Shown piece by piece: positions 10,706 to 26,677 of a DNA stretch of 29,365 bases; the stretch's first letter is position 1, and each line of letters starts with the position of its first letter. Made by a program: the position numbers and the translations under genes. Below the pieces are notes generated by a model. The model was not told the origin of the DNA, did no database searches, and saw nothing but the letters and a program-made list of their open reading frames with translations. Where the stretch lies: IMG/VR virus record IMGVR_UViG_3300034082_001991, positions 1 through 29,365 of that record, one strand, 5' to 3'. This DNA comes from a virus.

Positions 10706-12774
10706 TAATTCTTAAGAATATAACTCTCCGTAATTTTTTATCAATTGGACAAGTAACACAAGCAGTAAACTTTGATAGACAAGAACTAACACTTATTCTA
10801 GGTGAGAACTTAGACTTAGGTGGTGATGGTGCTCGTAATGGCACGGGTAAAACCTCACTGATTCAGGCACTATCTTACGCCTTATTCGGTGTTCCTATTA
10901 ACAGTATTCGTAAAGATAATCTAGTTAATCGTACCAATGGCAAAAACATGATGGTAACACTAGAGTTTAGTGTTAACAGTATAGATTATAAAATTGAACG
11001 CGGAAGAAAGCCAAACATCCTACGATTCTACGTGAATAGTGATTTGCAAAAAGGTAATGATGACGCACAAGGTGAGAATAAAGAAACACAAGTTGCAATT
11101 GAAAAAGTAATTCATATGAGTGCCGATATGTTTCGGCATATTGTAGCATTGAATACTTACTCTGAACCATTTCTTGCTCTTAAAAATAATGAGCAACGGG
11201 ATATCATTGAACAACTATTGGGTATCACACTGCTTAGTGAAAAAGCTGAGTCAATTAAACAACAACTAAAGAATACCAAAGATGATATTCAGCAAGAAGA
11301 ATTCAATGTAAAAGCTATTGAAGAAGCCAATAAACGTGTAAAAGAACAAATTGAATCTACTAAACGTAGACAAAAATTGTGGAAAATGAAACATGATGAA
11401 GATTTAGAGCGTCTTGCTATTGACTATCAACGTTTGATTACTATTAATATTGATAGTGAATTACAGGCTCATAAAGATTTGTCCGTCTGGAATGAAAAGA
11501 AAAAACAACAAGATGCATACAATGCATTAATTGCTCGTTCAACTGCATGGCAACAAAAACATGACAGTGATATTTCTGTAGCAAGGGTTTCGTACTCACT
11601 TAAAAACGAATATGACATTGAAACTGAACTTGAAGCATGGACTAAATTGAATGAATGGACCCGTGAGTCTATCACACAAGATACTCTGGCTAGTACAATT
11701 GCTACCCAAACCAAAAGTATAGAAAAAGAAAAAAAATTAATTTCTAAACTTGAAAAAGAGGTAAGGTCATTAGAAGATCATACTTGTTATGCGTGTGGAC
11801 AAGACTTTCATGATGAGAGTCATGCTAAAGTCTTAACTGACAAGCAAGAAATGTTAACCAATACTCGTTTGCAAGTTTCTGAATTAGCAAATTTACTAGT
11901 TGCAAATGCATTACTAGTCAAAGAACTAGGACTGCAACCTACTCCATTGTATAAAACAGAAGCTGAGGCGATTCGTCATAGCAGTGACTTGAGTAACTTA
12001 AAAAAAGTTTTTGAAGATAAAAAGCTAGAAGCTAACCCCTTTGCTGATCAATTAGCAGAATATACTATGATTGAGTTAGGGCGTCAGCCAGAAACACATT
12101 ATGATACTGAATCGCAGGCAATTGAACATCGTAGTAAAGTTGCTAATATAATTAAAGATATTGAACGAAAAAGCGAAGATGTTGATCCATATAATGAACA
12201 AATTGCCGAGATGGAAAATCAAGCATTGCAAGAAATTAACTTTGATAAGATTAATCGGTTGACACGTACCATGGAACATCAGAAATTCTTGCTTGATATT
12301 TTAACTAGCAAAGATAGCTTTGTTCGTAAGAAGATTATTGACCAAAATCTATCATACTTGAATAGTAGGTTAACACATTACTTGGATAAGATTGGATTAC
12401 CACATCAAGTAATATTTAAAAATGATTTACAAGTTGAGATTACAGAATTAGGCAGAGAACTTGACTTTGATAATTTAAGTAGGGGTGAACGTAACCGATT
12501 GATTTTAGGATTGAGTTTTGCGTTTCGTGATGTATGGGAGAATCTGTATAGTCCAATCAATACATTGTTTATTGATGAATTGATTGATAGTGGTTTAGAT
12601 ACAATGGGTGTTGAAAACGCTATTGCTATTCTTAAAGACATGAGCCGTCGTAGAAAGAAATCTATTTGGTTAGTAAGTCATCGTGAAGAATTAGCCGGAC
12701 GAGTTCCAAATGTGTTGAAAGTTATTAAAGAAAATGGGTTTACATCTTACAATACCTCAGTGGATATAGAATGA
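10702..12774 (+). CDS. gp46: Recombination nuclease ATPase gp46-like (Rad50/SbcC type)
   Basis: The SMC-like ATPase partner of gp47. Walker A is GARNGTGKT (43-51). Long coiled-coil arms run from about 185 to 345 and 370 to 545, separated by a zinc hook (C362-Y-A-C365 in HTCYACGQDF). The ABC signature is LSRGERNRL (S593, G595) and Walker B is TLFIDELIDSG (D625, E626), followed by an SHREE histidine motif. At 690 residues it is longer than T4 gp46 (560), with the extra length in the coiled coil. All ATPase residues are present. It overlaps gp47 by four bases, and the SDR gene start overlaps its own end (ATGAG), so four genes in a row are coupled. Confidence 0.95.
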   Translation: MIILKNITLRNFLSIGQVTQAVNFDRQELTLILGENLDLGGDGARNGTGKTSLIQALSYALFGVPINSIRKDNLVNRTNGKNMMVTLEFSVNSIDYKIERGRKPNILRFYVNSDLQKGNDDAQGENKETQVAIEKVIHMSADMFRHIVALNTYSEPFLALKNNEQRDIIEQLLGITLLSEKAESIKQQLKNTKDDIQQEEFNVKAIEEANKRVKEQIESTKRRQKLWKMKHDEDLERLAIDYQRLITINIDSELQAHKDLSVWNEKKKQQDAYNALIARSTAWQQKHDSDISVARVSYSLKNEYDIETELEAWTKLNEWTRESITQDTLASTIATQTKSIEKEKKLISKLEKEVRSLEDHTCYACGQDFHDESHAKVLTDKQEMLTNTRLQVSELANLLVANALLVKELGLQPTPLYKTEAEAIRHSSDLSNLKKVFEDKKLEANPFADQLAEYTMIELGRQPETHYDTESQAIEHRSKVANIIKDIERKSEDVDPYNEQIAEMENQALQEINFDKINRLTRTMEHQKFLLDILTSKDSFVRKKIIDQNLSYLNSRLTHYLDKIGLPHQVIFKNDLQVEITELGRELDFDNLSRGERNRLILGLSFAFRDVWENLYSPINTLFIDELIDSGLDTMGVENAIAILKDMSRRRKKSIWLVSHREELAGRVPNVLKVIKENGFTSYNTSVDIE

Positions 12775-13376
12775 GAATATTAATTACCGGTTCATCAAGT
12801 GGCGTGGGACAAGGATTATTATTGGCATTGTCTAGCTCCCATACAGTTATAGGATTGTCCAGATCCGTGTTAGACTTGTCTGTCACGGAACAGGTTTCTA
12901 ATTTTAATATACCAATCATTGACATGTTAATTAATTGTGCTGGCACTGACATAGGTGGTAAAATAGAATTTACAAAACATAATACTAAAGAAGTTATTGA
13001 TATAATTAATACAAATTTGATTGCTCCGGTTATATTATCACAAAAAGCATTAATAAAGAATCACCAATGTAAGATTGTAAATATATCTAGTACTAATAAT
13101 ATTAAGTATTATCCAAATAATCTTACATATAGTTTAACAAAGAAATCATTAGAATCGTTTACTAATATGCTTCAAATAGAATATCCCGAAATAAATATTT
13201 TAGAAATCAGATTGGGTTTAACTAAAACAAATTTTAATGGTAGTCGTTATAAAGGACATGAAGAACGGTTTAATGATGTATACTCAAACCCCCATCTAAC
13301 AGTAGATGAAGTTGTTACCCGCATTACAACTGTGCTGTTTAACAATACTGTTAAGTTTATAGAGATTGCGCCATGA
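12771..13376 (+). CDS. Short-chain dehydrogenase/reductase (SDR)
   Basis: A 201-residue classical-type SDR oxidoreductase, short for the family (about 250). All core elements are visible: cofactor loop TGSSSGVG (6-13), NCAG (55-58), the active-site Asn in NTNLIAP (N82), the Ser in VNISSTN (106-107) and YSLTK with Y120 and K124. The substrate cannot be predicted; loss of length comes from the region between beta-2 and NAG and from the C-terminal substrate loop. Its start overlaps the gp46 stop and its stop overlaps the radical SAM gene start, so it is inserted as a coupled pair within the replication operon. It is unlike any T4 gene and is probably an acquired auxiliary gene. NAD(P)(H) use is inferred from the family. 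Confidence 0.88.
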   Translation: MRILITGSSSGVGQGLLLALSSSHTVIGLSRSVLDLSVTEQVSNFNIPIIDMLINCAGTDIGGKIEFTKHNTKEVIDIINTNLIAPVILSQKALIKNHQCKIVNISSTNNIKYYPNNLTYSLTKKSLESFTNMLQIEYPEINILEIRLGLTKTNFNGSRYKGHEERFNDVYSNPHLTVDEVVTRITTVLFNNTVKFIEIAP

Positions 13377-14476
13377 AATTAAACTATCCTTGGCAATTAT
13401 ATCATTGGCATTTTGAAGTGAGTGGTAAGTGTACACTCAAATGCCCACGCTGTCCTAGAAATGATATGGCCCCTGTTCCATGGATGAACAAAGAATTAAC
13501 GTTAGGCTTCTTTAAAAAAGTATTACCACCTGAATTATTAAAGACACATGTTAAACGCATTACACTGTGCGGTGATATAGGTGATCCTATCTATGCTAGC
13601 CAATACTTAGATATCGTTGAGTACATCAAACTAAATAATCCAAAAATACATGTTTTTACTATTACTAATGGTAGTTACCGAAAAGCTGAATGGTGGGAGC
13701 GATTAGCCGCTATTAGTAATGAGTATGACACCGTTAATTTTAGTATTGATGGATATGACCAAGAGTCTAATAATTTATATCGTATAGGTAGCAATTGGGA
13801 TTCAATTATGCAGGGTATGGATATCATGTGTAACAAAAGTTCAGCATTTGTATATTGGGCTGCTATTATATTTTCATTCAACCAAGATCGCATAGATGAT
13901 ATTCATAAGCAAGCAAAAGAAATGGGTTGTGACGGTGTTCAATTAACATATAGTACCAAATTTGGCAATACGTCCGGAGAATCATACGGTGGAGAAAATG
14001 ATACGCTTAAACCTAGACCAGAGTTCATTAGTAAAACATATCGGTATGAACGACATTTCAGAAATATTTCGGGTAGAGAGCAACACAATGCAGATTACAT
14101 GAATACTAACATAAAGATGTTTGAGGAGATATCAAAAACATATCAAAAATTCATTACACCTATGTGTTCAATTGGTAATCGCGGTTTATATGTAAGCGCA
14201 GATGGTGTGATTCACCCCTGTAGTTGGGTAAGTTATCCATATGTGTCTTTAACATCTGCCCGAAAAATTATAAAATTTGAAGATAGTTTTCATCAAGTAC
14301 ATAGAGACAAACTCAATTTAAATGAAAGAACATTAGAAGATATATTGAATGATGATATTTGGTCTCACTTGTTTAACAGTTTTGATGATGAGTCAAAAAC
14401 GTGGGTAGAGTGTGAGCAAAAATGCAATTGTTCATTGGTAAATAAAGAATATGCTGTTGGGTTTCTAACAAATTAA
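13373..14476 (+). CDS. Radical SAM enzyme with C-terminal SPASM/twitch-like cysteines
   Basis: A 367-residue radical S-adenosylmethionine enzyme. The cluster motif CTLKCPRC (C20, C24, C27) binds the catalytic 4Fe-4S. The following TLCGDIGDPIYA (64-75) takes the place of the SAM-binding GGE region, and NFSIDGYD (122-129) is a typical radical SAM barrel strand. A second set of cysteines, C265, C283, C347, C351 and C353, is arranged like a twitch or SPASM auxiliary cluster, as in peptide-modifying and aminoglycoside-type enzymes. No precursor peptide is obvious next to it. Its ATG overlaps the SDR stop by four bases, so the two probably act on the same molecule. The target (nucleotide, sugar, peptide or lipid) is unknown. 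A QueE role is unlikely given length and lack of other queuosine genes. Confidence 0.88.
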   Translation: MKLNYPWQLYHWHFEVSGKCTLKCPRCPRNDMAPVPWMNKELTLGFFKKVLPPELLKTHVKRITLCGDIGDPIYASQYLDIVEYIKLNNPKIHVFTITNGSYRKAEWWERLAAISNEYDTVNFSIDGYDQESNNLYRIGSNWDSIMQGMDIMCNKSSAFVYWAAIIFSFNQDRIDDIHKQAKEMGCDGVQLTYSTKFGNTSGESYGGENDTLKPRPEFISKTYRYERHFRNISGREQHNADYMNTNIKMFEEISKTYQKFITPMCSIGNRGLYVSADGVIHPCSWVSYPYVSLTSARKIIKFEDSFHQVHRDKLNLNERTLEDILNDDIWSHLFNSFDDESKTWVECEQKCNCSLVNKEYAVGFLTN

Positions 14477-15151: not shown

Positions 15152-15471
15152 ATGAACAGCAATGTTCATAGAAAACCGAGAAGGCTCTCGTCAAAGCGAA
15201 CCTTCAATGAGTTTATATCCAATTCTATCTTGCGGATATAGAACATGCGTTGTCGAAGGACCAATTGAAAGACATTGGCAGCTTCACTACAGTCCCAAAA
15301 ACATTACAGGACAACCGGTTGCGTATAATGTCAGAAATAGGTGATTATACGGGGAATAGATGGCAAAGGTCGACGGTCGTGGCAAACACACTTTTATCCA
15401 ACGGTAGTGCAAATTTGCACTACCATGGCTCTCAAATCGGCAATATATACTTTGAGCCATTCAAAGTATAA
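15152..15471 (+). pseudogene. Small gene of unknown function split by a -1 frame change
   Basis: The reading frame starts at ATG 15152 with GGAG five bases upstream and encodes NSNVHRKPRRLSSKRTFNEF followed by ISNSIL, then meets a TAG at 15239. If the frame moves back by one base at about 15230-15232 (TTG), it continues ADIEHALSKDQLKDIGSFTT and runs to a stop at 15471, giving about 106 residues. The joined sequence ISNSIL-ADIEHALSKDQL reads smoothly, and the second part ends with NGSANLHYHGSQIGNIYFEP, which looks like genuine protein. There is no slippery heptamer at the junction, so a one-base deletion (a real mutation or an assembly error) is more likely than programmed shifting. I do not recognise the product. 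It follows the resolvase-like gene after a 79-base gap. Confidence 0.5.
15403..15470 (+). repeat. 22-bp perfect palindrome and two competing hairpins
   Basis: Bases 15403-15424 are a perfect palindrome: an 11-base arm GGTAGTGCAAA joined directly to its complement. Next, ATGGCTC (plus CAAA after a two-base bulge) at 15425-15436 can pair with TTTGAGCCAT at 15451-15460. TATACTTTGA (15446-15455) can instead pair with TCAAAGTATA (15461-15470) across a five-base loop. The last two pairings share bases and exclude each other. All lie within the 3' end of the broken small gene. Confidence 0.7.
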
Positions 15472-15516: not shown

Positions 15517-15536
15517 AGATGAACGCTAGTTCATCT
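15517..15536. terminator. Hairpin between convergent genes
   Basis: AGATGAAC and GTTCATCT form a perfect eight-pair stem with the loop GCTA, in the 106-base gap between the broken small gene (plus) and the gp26 downstream ORF (minus). It has no T-run on either side, so a termination function is only suggested by position. Confidence 0.35.
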
Positions 15537-15577: not shown

Positions 15578-15808
15578 CTAGAAAAATGGCAACTGTGTCT
15601 TTTTAGTTGTTTCCATATTACTTTCTATTAATTCATTAACTAATTTTCTTTCGTCATAGGACATGTTTAGTACATCTTCATACGAAGCACCTCCCCGCAT
15701 GTACCAAGATAAAGTTAAAGCAGATTTCTTTATCTCAGTACATTCTTTTTCCATGCCGTCTAGCAGCTTCTGTACACCCTTAGGGTCTAGGTGTAGAAGC
15801 CTTAACCG
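15578..15808 (-). CDS. -1 frame extension of gp26 (58-aa ORF from ATG 15754)
   Basis: A short frame open from the slippery site at the end of the gp26 gene to a TAG at 15578. Read after a -1 slip it adds 76 residues: 18 residues ending LDPKGVQKLLDG, then MEKECTEIKKSALTLSWYMR and so on to QLPFF. The WYMRGGASYEDVLNMSYDER segment matches small proteins I associate with the gene after gp26 in cyanophage-like T4 relatives. The internal ATG at 15754 could start a stand-alone 58-residue protein, but no Shine-Dalgarno sequence precedes it and the coding signal (LLHLDPKGVQKLL) extends upstream of it. This supports expression mainly as a gp26 fusion of about 349 residues. By analogy with lambda G/GT it would be a minor tail-assembly chaperone form. 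Confidence 0.75.
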   Translation of the reverse strand, partial: RLRLLHLDPKGVQKLLDGMEKECTEIKKSALTLSWYMRGGASYEDVLNMSYDERKLVNELIESNMETTKKTQLPFF

Positions 15809-15814
15809 AAAAAA
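15766..15814 (-). promoter_or_regulatory. Programmed -1 ribosomal frameshift signal
   Basis: On the minus strand the gp26 gene ends GAT-TTT-TTC-GGT-TAA. T-TTT-TTC (15814-15808) is a perfect X-XXY-YYZ slippery heptamer in the right phase. After a seven-base spacer a hairpin follows: GCTTCT-ACACC (15800-15790) pairs with GGTGT-[AC bulge]-AGAAGC (15778-15766), eleven base pairs around an eleven-base loop. The zero-frame stop (15804-15802) is two codons after the slippery site. The -1 frame is open for 76 codons. All three elements of a bacterial -1 signal are therefore present. Confidence 0.8.
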
Positions 15815-16626
15815 TCAGTTTGATTAATTACAATGTCTTGTGAATATTCATGTTGACAATGAATACATTTGATTTTTTGTGGCTCTAGTTTTGATTGATC
15901 TTTTAATTTTCCATGGTAATCACGTATGTCTATGTAGATGTTTTTATCGCAATTTTGTAAAAATTCAAGTATAAAATCAGTTTGTTTGACTAGTTCATCG
16001 TTGACTTTAATGTATTCAATAGTATGTGATAATAGGTCCATTGTGATTGTAGTAATGGTTACTATCGCTTCATGTGACTTTTTTGTTTTTTCTTCATCCG
16101 ACAACTCTTGCAAACCTGCAAACATTTTTTGAATTTCAAATTGATGTTTACCGGCATCACTCATTTCTTTATAGATGAGAGGTCTGAATTTAATTTCTAA
16201 CTCACCTAATTTTAATGGGGTAGAGTAGTCTACTTTTTTGATATTTTGCAGCATGCCAATAAGATTAACTCCGTATGTAGCAGATTCACCACATGCTGGA
16301 CAAATAGATTCAACTTCTAAGTCATTTCCCTGTGAGCATGATTTGATAGCTAATAGTATAGCATCTACATCAATACTTTTGATTTGCCATGGATCTTTGA
16401 TTGCGGGAACACAGCTTTTGATTAATTCTACTATAGCAAGACCGTTGTATAAAGCGTCTGGTGTTCTTACTGTGATTTCATCAATTGCCGTCATGGGATA
16501 GATAGGTAACTCACCGGTTTCTGACATAGTTAAGACTTCAGGCTCATATCCTTCACCGCCGCTGGGTAATTTCAAATAAATTGACGGTCTACGAAAATAT
16601 TGCTTTAATGGATTGTTTGATAACAT
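15802..16626 (-). CDS. gp26: gp26-like baseplate hub/tail assembly protein
   Basis: A 274-residue protein with the pattern of the T4 gp26 baseplate family: MLSNNPLKQYFRRPSIYLKL, LPSGGEGY, then GELPIYPMTAIDEITVRTPD and ALYNGLAIVELIKSCVPAI. Two CxxC pairs (C109/C112 in ICPACGE and C254/C257 in KCIHCQH) probably bind zinc. T4 gp26 has 208 residues; the extra length includes the second CxxC pair. Genes of this type next to a tape measure gene behave like tail assembly chaperones, and here it lies divergently from the tape-measure-like gene. Its 3' end carries a -1 frameshift signal giving a longer form. A late-type promoter half (CACTAAATA on this strand, 16681-16689) lies 55 bases upstream of the ATG. 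Confidence 0.8.
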   Translation of the reverse strand: MLSNNPLKQYFRRPSIYLKLPSGGEGYEPEVLTMSETGELPIYPMTAIDEITVRTPDALYNGLAIVELIKSCVPAIKDPWQIKSIDVDAILLAIKSCSQGNDLEVESICPACGESATYGVNLIGMLQNIKKVDYSTPLKLGELEIKFRPLIYKEMSDAGKHQFEIQKMFAGLQELSDEEKTKKSHEAIVTITTITMDLLSHTIEYIKVNDELVKQTDFILEFLQNCDKNIYIDIRDYHGKLKDQSKLEPQKIKCIHCQHEYSQDIVINQTDFFG

Positions 16627-16732: not shown

Positions 16733-19700
16733 ATGAGTTCAGAAGACGAAATTATACGTAAACTAACAAGAATGACAGAGGTTTTGGAATCCATGACCGG
16801 TGGATTTTCTTCTGCAACTGATGCAACTCGTAATTTTACTGAGGGGATGACAGAAGCTGCAAAGGCTGAAGCTGAATCAAAAGCGATTGGGGACGCAGCT
16901 AACAAGCGCATGGAAAAAGCTACAAACGAAGCTATAAAAGGTGTGGCTAGTTTTGGTAAAGCATTAACTAGTGGTGCAGAGGGAGGCTTTGGTAAATTGA
17001 GTGGCGGGATTGAAGCAACAGCACAATCTGTAGCTACACTAGCTGAAGGTTTTGGCAGATTCGGAAAAGTAGTTGCTGGATTGACAATAGCCACTGGTAA
17101 ATTGCTTACAGCACATATGAAGCAGACTGATGAGATTTTAGCTGCCAGTGATAATATAAAGAAATTGGGTTTTGCTGGAGAGCAATCATCTAAAACTATC
17201 TTTGACCTGGCACAGAATGCCAAAACTTCAACCACTAAGTTAGCCGAAGCAATGAAAAGAACCCAAGGAGGGTTAATAACATTTGGTGATGATTTTGGTA
17301 AGGGCGCAGTAAAATTTGGTGAGATGATTGCTGTCACTGACCAGCAGCGTGAAGCATTTCAACGGTTAGGTGTTACTCAGGAAGAATTGATGGGAGGTCA
17401 AGCTGACTACCTAGCCTTACAAAAAGCATCCGGGCAATCAATGGCTAGCCAATTAAAAGATACTAAACAGTTAAAACAAGCATCATTAGACTATGTAGAA
17501 AATTTAGTAAAACTTAGTAAACTAACCGGGAAAGATGTTGATAAACTTAAACAAGCCCAATTAGCAGCGAATGAAGCAACGGAAGAACTAATATATACCC
17601 GTTCAGAAAATGTAAAAATTCGTGAGTTGAAAGCTATGAATTTAGCTGATCAAGCTAAAGCTATAGAAGATCAACAAAAAGCAAGAAAAGAGTTTATAGA
17701 AAAGGCTTATTCCCAGTTTGGTGAAGAAACCGGTTCACAATTAGCAAGATTAGCAAGAACCGGAGCATATGACACATATACTAGTGGTTTGGCAAATTTA
17801 GGTATTGAAGCACAACAACTCTCAGAAGACCTAAAGAAAGCTAAACCTGGTGCCGAAGTTGATCTTATTTTTAATAAAACTGCTGCCGGAATTTCTACTA
17901 AACTAGATATAATTTCCACTGATATGCGAGATGCATTTCAATTTGGTGGTGACACATTACTAAAAGCCTTTGGCGCTAATAATACTTTGTTAAAAGAACA
18001 AGTAGTTGCAACCGGAGTAACAGTTGAACAATTAAATGAAGCCAATGTCAAAATAAAATTAGCAATAGGAGATCCAGCTAATCCAACTAAACCTACTGCT
18101 GGACCAATATTAGATAACGACCCTGCTGAAATATCAAGAAATTTTCTAACAACATTAACTTTAAATTTAACTAAAGGGCTTGAACAATTAAAATTTGACA
18201 CTAACCCTTTGGTAAAAGGATTTGATACCACTACAACTGCGGTAACTATATTAGCTGGTGCTGCAGGCATAGCATCCGCTGCTCTTGTTGCTATGGCAGG
18301 CGGTAAAGCTGTAATAGCTGGCGGTAAAGCTGTAATAGCTGGCGGTAAAGCTATAGGATCATTATTTAGTAAAGGTGCACCTACAGTACCAGCAGCAACT
18401 ACAGTAGCAGCAGGTACCACTAAAGCTGCTGCTCCGGCAGCTGGGTCACTTTCAGGTTGGAAAGCAGGTTCTACTGCCGCAGCAGAAGGCGTTGCTAAAG
18501 CTGGTGCAGGCGCCGCAGCAGAAAGTGCTGCTAAAGCTGGTGCAGGCGCAGCCGGTGAAGCAGCCAAATCAGCAGCTAAAGTAGCAGCCGGTGAAGCAGC
18601 ACTAAAAACAGCAGGGGCTACGGCAGGTAAATCAATGCTGAAAGCTCTTCCTGTTGTAGGATCTATTCTTAGTGTTGCTTCTGCGTTTGGAAGAATAAGT
18701 TCAGGAGATTATATTGGTGCTGCATTGGAGGGAGGAGCGGCGGTTGCAGCCCTTGTACCGGGACCCGGTACTGCTATAGCATTAGCATTAACTGGGGCTG
18801 CCGGTGCTAAAGATGTATATACCGCATTAAATCCAGACTTAGCCAAAGTTCCTGAATCTGTGCCAGCAGAGCCACCAAAGTCAGTTGCACAACCTACAGC
18901 TCCAGAAGTACCCAAGCAAGTACAAGTACCCGGGGAAGCGGGTCGCGGAGCAGCAGCACCGGCAGCAGCAGCACCGGCAGCAGCAGCACCGGCAGCAGCA
19001 GCACCGCCACCTGTATCAACCGCGTCAAGAACTGCAGGTACCATGAGTGCTTACAAACCAAGAGGATCAGTAGTGGCTGCTAAACCAGCAGCTAACTCAG
19101 CAACACAAGGATCTGGCGCACCTAAAATTGAAGACCTGTTTACATTTGGGGGACAAACTGGGCAGAGAAGTAACTTTGATGATTTGGATCCTGCTTTCAA
19201 AACTAGACTGATAAAGGTTGCACAAGCATATAAAGCAGAAGGTGGTACAAAAATAAATGTAACAAGTGCAGTAAGGGATCAGGAAGATCAAGAAAGAATT
19301 TATAAAACTTGGAAAGATGCCGGCGGTGATTTAAAAACTAAGCCGAAGGCAGGCGGGATGACAACACCCGCGTTACCAGTAAGTATGGGCGGCAGACCAA
19401 GCGCACATAATGTTGGGAATGCAATTGATGCCGGACAACAAGCCGTAGATATTAATAATAAAATTAAATTAAAAGATTTTGGATTAGTTTGGGGAGGGAC
19501 ATTTAAGGACGCTGACCCGGTTCATATTCAAATGGGATCAAATTTATCAGCCGCAACCGGAGGAATAACCAACGGTCCAAAATCCGGTTATCCTGCAACA
19601 TTGCACGGTAATGAAATTATAACACCATTGAGTCCTAATAGTATTTTAGAACAATTAGGCAAAACCCCTGCTACAACTGACATAGCAGGATCATCGTCAT

Positions 19701-19846
19701 CATCTACAAGTAACACAATCAAAGAAATTTATTCAATGAATACAGAAATTATGGAATTGCTTGCAGGTAAATTAGATACTATGATTTCAAAACTATCAGA
19801 TAGTAATGATACCCAATCAAAATTATTAATGTATTCTAGGGTTTAA
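16733..19846 (+). CDS. Tape-measure-like protein with C-terminal M15 peptidase domain
   Basis: A 1037-residue protein. Residues 1-480 are mostly helical and rich in Ala, Lys, Glu and Gln. A hydrophobic Ala/Gly stretch (about 500-700) follows, containing AGGKAVI repeats (523-541), as in tape measure proteins. A Pro/Ala-repeat linker lies at about 740-765. Residues 813-935 match the VanY/M15 peptidoglycan peptidases: VTSAVRDQEDQERIYKTW, RPSAHNVGNAID with H892 and D899, and DADPVHIQM with D928 and H931, i.e. both zinc histidines, the zinc Asp and the acidic catalytic residue. The end is helical. It would set tail length and, when ejected, cut the peptide part of peptidoglycan. It lies opposite the gp26 chaperone-like gene and before portal. 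The tape measure call rests on composition and context; the M15 call on visible motifs. Confidence 0.82.
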   Translation: MSSEDEIIRKLTRMTEVLESMTGGFSSATDATRNFTEGMTEAAKAEAESKAIGDAANKRMEKATNEAIKGVASFGKALTSGAEGGFGKLSGGIEATAQSVATLAEGFGRFGKVVAGLTIATGKLLTAHMKQTDEILAASDNIKKLGFAGEQSSKTIFDLAQNAKTSTTKLAEAMKRTQGGLITFGDDFGKGAVKFGEMIAVTDQQREAFQRLGVTQEELMGGQADYLALQKASGQSMASQLKDTKQLKQASLDYVENLVKLSKLTGKDVDKLKQAQLAANEATEELIYTRSENVKIRELKAMNLADQAKAIEDQQKARKEFIEKAYSQFGEETGSQLARLARTGAYDTYTSGLANLGIEAQQLSEDLKKAKPGAEVDLIFNKTAAGISTKLDIISTDMRDAFQFGGDTLLKAFGANNTLLKEQVVATGVTVEQLNEANVKIKLAIGDPANPTKPTAGPILDNDPAEISRNFLTTLTLNLTKGLEQLKFDTNPLVKGFDTTTTAVTILAGAAGIASAALVAMAGGKAVIAGGKAVIAGGKAIGSLFSKGAPTVPAATTVAAGTTKAAAPAAGSLSGWKAGSTAAAEGVAKAGAGAAAESAAKAGAGAAGEAAKSAAKVAAGEAALKTAGATAGKSMLKALPVVGSILSVASAFGRISSGDYIGAALEGGAAVAALVPGPGTAIALALTGAAGAKDVYTALNPDLAKVPESVPAEPPKSVAQPTAPEVPKQVQVPGEAGRGAAAPAAAAPAAAAPAAAAPPPVSTASRTAGTMSAYKPRGSVVAAKPAANSATQGSGAPKIEDLFTFGGQTGQRSNFDDLDPAFKTRLIKVAQAYKAEGGTKINVTSAVRDQEDQERIYKTWKDAGGDLKTKPKAGGMTTPALPVSMGGRPSAHNVGNAIDAGQQAVDINNKIKLKDFGLVWGGTFKDADPVHIQMGSNLSAATGGITNGPKSGYPATLHGNEIITPLSPNSILEQLGKTPATTDIAGSSSSSTSNTIKEIYSMNTEIMELLAGKLDTMISKLSDSNDTQSKLLMYSRV
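18299..18355 (+). repeat. 21-bp tandem repeat inside tape measure gene
   Basis: GGCGGTAAAGCTGTAATAGC plus a final T, copied exactly at 18299-18319 and 18320-18340, with a third partial copy from 18341. It encodes repeated GGKAVIA. The exact DNA identity indicates recent slippage duplication in the hydrophobic segment. Confidence 0.85.
18949..19009 (+). repeat. 15-bp tandem repeat (Pro-Ala linker) in tape measure gene
   Basis: GCACCGGCAGCAGCA units repeated about four times, encoding PAAAA blocks. It forms the flexible linker before the peptidase domain and is expected to vary in copy number by slippage. Confidence 0.85.
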
Positions 19847-25890: not shown

Positions 25891-25919
25891 GTGTTAAAAT
25901 AGTAGAATGTTAAGTATTA

Positions 25920-25928
25920 GACTAAATA
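25920..25928 (+). promoter_or_regulatory. Late-promoter-like element just before HNH gene
   Basis: GACTAAATA, five bases before ATG 25934, with no Shine-Dalgarno sequence. As at gp25, the spacing would produce a near-leaderless transcript if active. Confidence 0.3.
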
Positions 25929-25933
25929 CTATT

Positions 25934-26677
25934 ATGATTGAAAACAAATATACCAAACTTTATTACAAGATAACTTCCAATGCGAAGCAACGCATTACTG
26001 ATGGTTATACCGAACTACATCATATCATCCCTCAATCAATGGGCGGTAGTAATGATAAAGAAAACTTAGTAGAACTAACAGCAAGAGAACATTTTATTTG
26101 TCATTGGTTGTTGATTAAAATGACAGAAGGTGAAGATAGAAGTAAGATGTTATATGCACTTAATGGAATGAAAGCAGAGAATAGATATCAACAAAGATAC
26201 CATACAAAGATTACCGCAAGAGTCTATGAAAAGCATAGAATAGAACATGCAGAAAACCATAGTAAAAGAATGAAAGGTCGTATAGCCTGGAACAAAGGTG
26301 TACCGCAAACTGACGAACATAGAGAAAAAAATAGACAGGCGGCATTACAAAGAGCACCTAAGTCAGAAAAAACAAAAGAAAAGTGGAGACAGGCTAGATT
26401 GGGATACAAACATAGTGAAGAAACAAAAAAGAAACAGAGTGATAACCTAAAAGGTAAATTAAAAGGTCCGCAATCAGATGAACATAGACTTGCTATAAGT
26501 TTAGGTGGCAAAGGTATAAAGAAAGTAAAAACACACGGAGCAAACGTAGCCAAAGCAAATATAGGTAATATCAGCATCAACAAAGACGGATTAGAGAAAA
26601 AAGTAAAGAAAGATATACTACAAAGCTATCTAGACCAGGGTTGGCAACTAGGTGGCAAAAAGCGTAAGGTAGCATAA
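25934..26677 (+). CDS. HNH homing endonuclease with NUMOD3-like repeats
   Basis: A free-standing HNH endonuclease, probably a selfish mobile element. The HNH core is near the N-terminus: ELHHIIPQSMGGSNDKENLV with the paired histidines and Asn, then TAREHFICHWLL with the final His. The C-terminal half has repeated Lys-rich, DNA-binding motifs of the NUMOD3 kind: GRIAWNKGVPQTDEHREKNR, GYKHSEETKKKQSDNLKG and GPQSDEHRLAISLGGKG. From ATG 25934 the product is 247 residues; an upstream in-frame ATG at 25907 would add nine but lacks a ribosome-binding site. It sits between the capsid terminator and another terminator, next to gp23, a common insertion site for homing genes. The nuclease appears intact. 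Confidence 0.9.
   Translation: MIENKYTKLYYKITSNAKQRITDGYTELHHIIPQSMGGSNDKENLVELTAREHFICHWLLIKMTEGEDRSKMLYALNGMKAENRYQQRYHTKITARVYEKHRIEHAENHSKRMKGRIAWNKGVPQTDEHREKNRQAALQRAPKSEKTKEKWRQARLGYKHSEETKKKQSDNLKGKLKGPQSDEHRLAISLGGKGIKKVKTHGANVAKANIGNISINKDGLEKKVKKDILQSYLDQGWQLGGKKRKVA

Follow-up and report, generated by a model that had tools for sequence, protein, structure and literature searches.

A conserved -1 frameshift signal at the end of a gp26-like gene of a T4-type phage and its predicted pair of tail assembly chaperones

The gp26-like gene and its 3' end

The window, by which we mean the whole 29,365 nt stretch of viral DNA that was analysed, is from a T4-type phage, with genes for gp20 portal, gp21 protease, gp23 capsid protein, gp46/47, a late sigma factor and a gp5-like hub protein. 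A gp26-like gene occupies positions 15802 to 16626 on the minus strand. Its 0-frame product of 274 aa is TAC-N-like and matched both PF12322, T4_baseplate (E 4.7e-14; 53 bits, curated cut-off 24.5), and phrog_150, baseplate hub (4.6e-12). The protein contains two CxxC pairs (C109/C112 and C254/C257), each invariant across a gp26 alignment which has T4 gp26 among its sequences.

On the minus strand the gene ends GAT TTT TTC GGT TAA. The codons GAT TTT TTC hold a slippery heptamer T_TTT_TTC (15808–15814) in phase with gp26, followed by a 7 nt spacer, GGTTAAG (15801–15807), which includes the 0-frame stop TAA (15804–15802), and then by a predicted stimulatory stem-loop (15766–15800). The -1 frame stays open between positions 15814 and 15578, for 78 codons when the two Phe codons are counted and 76 past the slip, and encodes a C-terminal extension (FFRLRLLHLDPKG...KKTQLPFF). 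The predicted TAC-NC-like frameshift fusion would span 15578–16626 on the same strand, with the junction ...QTDFF-RLRLL... and a length of about 349 aa (273 + 76). An earlier sequence-only reading of this DNA had given the same gene end, in-phase slip, spacer, open frame of 76 codons and fusion length, and all of these were confirmed. Its eleven-pair hairpin is also present, but consists of 12 pairs with a 2 nt bulge. Among the 29 window ORFs of at least 100 aa, the gp26-like gene was alone in having an XXXYYYZ heptamer that is in phase and no more than 30 nt from the stop.

An AlphaFold2 model of the extension was helical, with a pLDDT of 86.5. Foldseek and VIA-align searches with models of gp26 and the extension returned short helical overlaps only, none of them informative, and a PDB sequence search gave no solved structure matching either. 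At the DNA level, phage and plasmid records gave no match, Rfam returned no family and ARAGORN no tRNA.

Conservation of the heptamer and the extension

Window-type loci were collected through two independent searches, one with gp26 and the other with only the extension, and 94 unique loci were left once duplicates were dropped. GATTTTTTC was present in 94/94 with the stop exactly one codon past the heptamer in all, a fixation we give as a count without a probability since the sequences are related by descent. The extension was exactly 78 codons long in 93 of the 94. Loci that were found through the extension only also carry the in-phase heptamer, and in three extension-driven loci with a later-starting tblastn match it lies likewise just upstream. 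Elsewhere in window-type genes Asp is encoded by GAT in 72% and Phe by TTT in 69% of cases, so the choice of GAT TTT TTC is not a matter of codon bias alone.

The same arrangement extends well outside the window-type loci. In-phase TTTTTTC with a -1 extension was found in 82/82 further unique contigs, which are of Kyanoviridae or RaK2 type, and 20 isolate phages have an in-phase T_TTT_TT[C/T] with a -1 ORF that starts FF. The isolates comprise 12 jumbo phages together with P-SSM2, Syn9, S-PM2, HTVC008M, KVP40, Aeh1, PhiW-14 and phiM12; the heptamer is T_TTT_TTT in three of the 20 (XacN1, HTVC008M and phiM12). The sequence-only reading had proposed that gp26 be recast in this branch of phages, but the signal is not peculiar to it, as the same heptamer occurs in Kyanoviridae, KVP40, Aeh1 and PhiW-14. 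Its proposal to compare T4-like phages was borne out, in that heptamer and extension are kept and the stem covaries in the window-type relatives. Over about 180 unique loci the frameshift reading was not refuted by downstream ORFs that had been kept while the heptamer was lost, or that had gained a clear start together with a Shine-Dalgarno (SD) sequence.

Among the frameshift-type genomes the sole departure was Ackermannviridae Vi01, which keeps the extension while its slip region is non-canonical. At about 2250–2426 of Vi01, gp26 ends GAA ATT TTC ATT TAA with no canonical heptamer, and the -1 frame opens just ahead of this end. At T_TTC in this genome a slip that involves one tRNA could occur.

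The downstream stem-loop

The stem of the window starts directly after the 7 nt spacer, with its 5' arm at 15800–15789, a 9 nt loop, and its 3' arm at 15779–15774 and 15771–15766 on either side of the 2 nt bulge. A spacer of this length fits the 5–9 nt placement of a downstream stimulatory structure. Folded as a single sequence the window hairpin is modest (z -1.2 to -1.4); it is covariation across an alignment of 80 sequences that carries the argument for the stem. In that alignment, which was scored for a 13-pair stem, 87% of cells were paired and pairing fell to 37–56% when the partner was slid. Nine of the 13 pairs had changed on both sides, and double-change cells numbered 88, compared with 31±5 in shuffled alignments; the shuffles do not preserve relatedness, whereas the slid-partner control does. 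Unconstrained RNAalifold recovered 10 of the 13 pairs and added one extra at the base.

Kyanoviridae-type loci carry a different and strong hairpin (mean z -3.7 by mononucleotide shuffles, compared with -2.7 for the hairpins of window-type relatives), placed past a spacer of 5–6 nt rather than 7 nt. In 70/73 Kyanoviridae-type contigs the heptamer is preceded at 4–18 nt by an SD-like motif, in most cases GGAGG or GAGG, but such a motif was present in 0/94 window-type relatives. Two stimulator designs are thus found at the same slip site.

Relation to T4 gp26 and gp51

The PF12322 model detected two genes in T4, gp26 (8e-65) and gp51 (1.8e-53), as well as two in RB49 and a single one in KVP40, Aeh1, cyanophages, Vi01 and others. 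No slip site was found in gp26 or gp51 of T4 and RB49. The window shares the PF12322 family with these phages, whose long form has a C-terminal tail homologous to the -1 extensions found elsewhere among T4-like phages, but T4 and RB49 have two duplicated genes where the window has one gene with a -1 frameshift. A profile built from the extensions of Kyanoviridae, KVP40, Aeh1, phiM12 and PhiW-14 matched the gp51 C-terminus of RB49 at 1.7e-8 and that of T4 at 3.5e-4. The jumbo-type extension profile alone gave no significant match to gp51, and hhalign of the jumbo-type against the Kyanoviridae-type extension gave a weak result (probability 37%). The link of the window extension to the Kyanoviridae type is accordingly weak; it depends on position, on the FFR start and on a core gene common to both.

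In a phylogenetic tree gp26 and gp51 of T4 and RB49 cluster together (support 94/91) inside a mostly frameshifting group. Both branches of the deepest split include frameshifting members, in a midpoint-rooted tree with several weak inner branches. An economical reading of these sequences would be ancestral frameshifting with a later duplication in the line of T4. It is probable, in our view, that the gp26 frameshift was ancestral to the T4 superfamily, jumbo phages included, and that T4 and RB49 escaped it by duplication into a short gp26 and a gp51 made up of core plus extension; the marine "truncated gp51" would then be the frameshift tail of gp26.

Two adjacent PF12322 copies were also seen in Campylobacter phage NCTC12673 (15536–16650 of the record), the second of which ends in a tail resembling the C-terminus of gp51 and has a single TAA within the region of the match. 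This pair is perhaps a second, independent duplication.

A predicted chaperone pair and its alternatives

In phage lambda, ribosomes that slip by -1 towards the end of a gene beside the tape measure gene produce a long isoform, gpGT, in addition to the short gpG, and this tail assembly chaperone frameshift was reportedly described by Xu, Hendrix and Duda in 2004. We consider it very likely that the gp26-like gene would give a short gp26 and a gp26-extension fusion through -1 frameshifting, the two forming a chaperone pair of the G/GT type. What makes this the leading interpretation is the conservation of heptamer and stem, the selection on the -1 frame that is described below, the homology to the gp51 C-terminus and the paralogy of gp26 and gp51. 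The sequence-only reading had put forward such a pair, and for the mechanism that it predicted the support from conservation, covariation and selection is strong.

One start would therefore serve two proteins. Most ribosomes would terminate one codon past T_TTT_TTC and release the short gp26 of 274 aa. The downstream stem-loop would pause a fraction of them and favour a one-base backward slip, in which the Phe tRNAs of the P and A sites would re-pair from TTT-TTC to TTT-TTT, and the slipped ribosomes would go on to add 76 codons to give the fusion of about 349 aa. On the lambda G/GT model, the tape measure protein would be chaperoned, and the tail-tube protein recruited, by the N-terminal part common to both products together with the C-terminal extension. 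The slipping itself, the rate at which it would occur and the chaperone role are inferences that go beyond what the sequence shows. Both isoforms would presumably bind the tape measure and affect the tail.

The candidate client is encoded next to the gp26-like gene, on the plus strand at 16733–19846. This 1037 aa product is rich in Ala and contains a hydrophobic stretch as well as a peptidase domain of the VanY/endolysin-like kind (residues 813–986). Its N-terminal part resembles the divergently encoded neighbour of gp26 in RaK2, Munch, BF, GAP32 and IMG/VR relatives. The RaK2 database record likens that neighbour to a tape measure protein, and we infer the same identity for the window product. 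Adjacency to a tape-measure-like gene in a T4-type phage had been claimed before and holds, although the two genes are divergent and the gp26-like gene does not lie upstream in one operon. In P-SSM2 and KVP40, gp26 directly follows a tail-tube gene.

If the frameshift is real, gp26 and the fusion might instead be structural proteins of the hub or baseplate, produced at a constant ratio. Such a role has traditionally been assigned to T4 gp26, described for many years as a subunit of the baseplate hub, and there is genetic work that locates it in the hub (PMC3004832). We nevertheless regard this as unlikely, given that the same T4 review counts gp26 and gp51 among the chaperones of hub assembly and records that gp51 is required yet absent from the particle (PMC3004832); a chaperone role for T4 gp26, of which the sequence-only reading was not aware, had already been listed there. 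The position of the gene beside tail tube and tape measure genes also speaks against a structural role. So does a mass spectrometry table for the CBB virion, in which the tape-measure neighbour CBB_251 is represented by 29 peptides and the gp26 homologue is missing, neither CBB_249 nor CBB_250 being listed; this absence is weak evidence (PMC5259590). The CBB gene numbers were matched through RefSeq tags, with CBB_250 presumed to be FDG95_gp250; the text of that paper also has "CBB_250" where CBB_240 seems to be meant (PMC5259590).

Translation of the extension as a separate small gene, with its own ATG, perhaps by re-initiation past the gp26 stop and with no frameshifting, appears less probable still. 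It is annotated in this way in P-SSM2 and KVP40 (as "gp51"), PBECO4 and GAP32, and 15/94 relatives carry an ATG of the -1 ORF close to the gp26 stop (codon index 3). In those 15 relatives coupled re-initiation could add a second product. Across the 94 relatives, however, the first ATG varies from codon 3 to codon 50, and in 78/94 no SD-like match precedes any early ATG or GTG, while the start of gp26 itself has such a match in 81 of the 91 scored. The lack of an SD sequence for this ORF, noted earlier, has its counterpart in the relatives, which show no conserved start or SD sequence. For the codons that lie after the slip and ahead of the usual first ATG, dN/dS was 0.28 in the -1 frame and 0.83 and 1.2 in the other frames; because of this purifying selection these codons are taken to be translated. 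Coding character upstream of the ATG had been claimed and stands, but that ATG is not the only one, as the -1 ORF of the window has four in frame (codon indices 20, 38, 50 and 66). A separate gene would also leave the invariance of GAT TTT TTC and the covariation of the stem unexplained, and the homologue of the extension in T4 and RB49 is joined to a gp26-like core. With no conserved ATG or SD sequence, a separate gene with its own start was rejected.

A chance heptamer, or a sequencing error that splits one gene, is scarcely credible and was rejected, as the same configuration is conserved over about 180 unique contigs and in 20 isolate genomes.

Comparison with known systems

The likeness of the predicted chaperone pair to lambda gpG/gpGT is one of arrangement, namely a -1 slip near the end of a gene that adjoins the tape measure gene, and two isoforms; in lambda the chaperone genes lie upstream of the tape measure gene in one operon, whereas in the window the tape measure gene is divergent. 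Also comparable are gp26 and the short "gp51" of Kyanoviridae, KVP40 and Aeh1, which have T_TTT_TTC or T_TTT_TTT at the same place and an extension with an FF start, though an extension about 16 residues shorter than the window type. We take the tail chaperone genes identified in T4-like phages in 2022 to be gp26 and gp51.

The frameshift had been thought undescribed for gp26. According to two later papers, however, Vladimirov, Gautam & Davidson 2022 (Virology 566:9-15) identified T4-like tail chaperone genes (PMC10885494, PMC12846349). As cited in the PRFect paper, some T4-like phages have a short and a fused long chaperone gene with no frameshifting (PMC10885494), and the 2022 study is also cited for polyT slip sites in T4-like TAC-N genes (PMC12846349). 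A -1 frameshift has been shown in Vandenendeviridae (PMC12846349). Phage Adele (Vandenendeviridae/Andersonviridae) has a -1 polyT slip near the end of TAC-N and an extension mis-annotated as a separate ORF, but its slip motif is reported as GTTTTT (PMC12846349). We liken it to the window by mechanism. In the open literature we found no description of a gp26 frameshift in jumbo phages. The frameshift principle is already known in phages, T4 relatives included, and the window is a well-supported new example with no new mechanism; its novelty is modest, because T4-like chaperone genes, polyT slip sites and split genes are all credited to the 2022 study by the papers that cite it.

The locus nevertheless corrects a widespread annotation error, in which the extension is entered as a separate hypothetical gene or as a "truncated gp51", or is omitted. 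It also offers a reason for a published oddity, the marine T4-like gp51 that is missing about its first 200 residues; Sullivan et al. 2010 recorded this short marine gp51 and did not name a frameshift (PMC3037559). Jumbo-phage lineages are here brought into the T4-like system of chaperones, complete with an RNA signal that covaries, and a natural comparison is offered between frameshifting and gene duplication as ways of setting the ratio of short to long chaperone.

Other features of the window

Downstream of the extension are perfect inverted repeats at 15403–15470 and 15517–15536, among them the palindrome GGTAGTGCAAATTTGCACTACC at 15403–15424, which are possibly terminators between convergent genes. 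An HNH endonuclease gene (25907–26677, plus strand), possibly for a homing endonuclease, directly follows the gp23-like major capsid gene. Genes for a FabG-like reductase and a radical SAM protein (12771–14476, plus strand) lie between the gp46-like and RusA-like resolvase genes.
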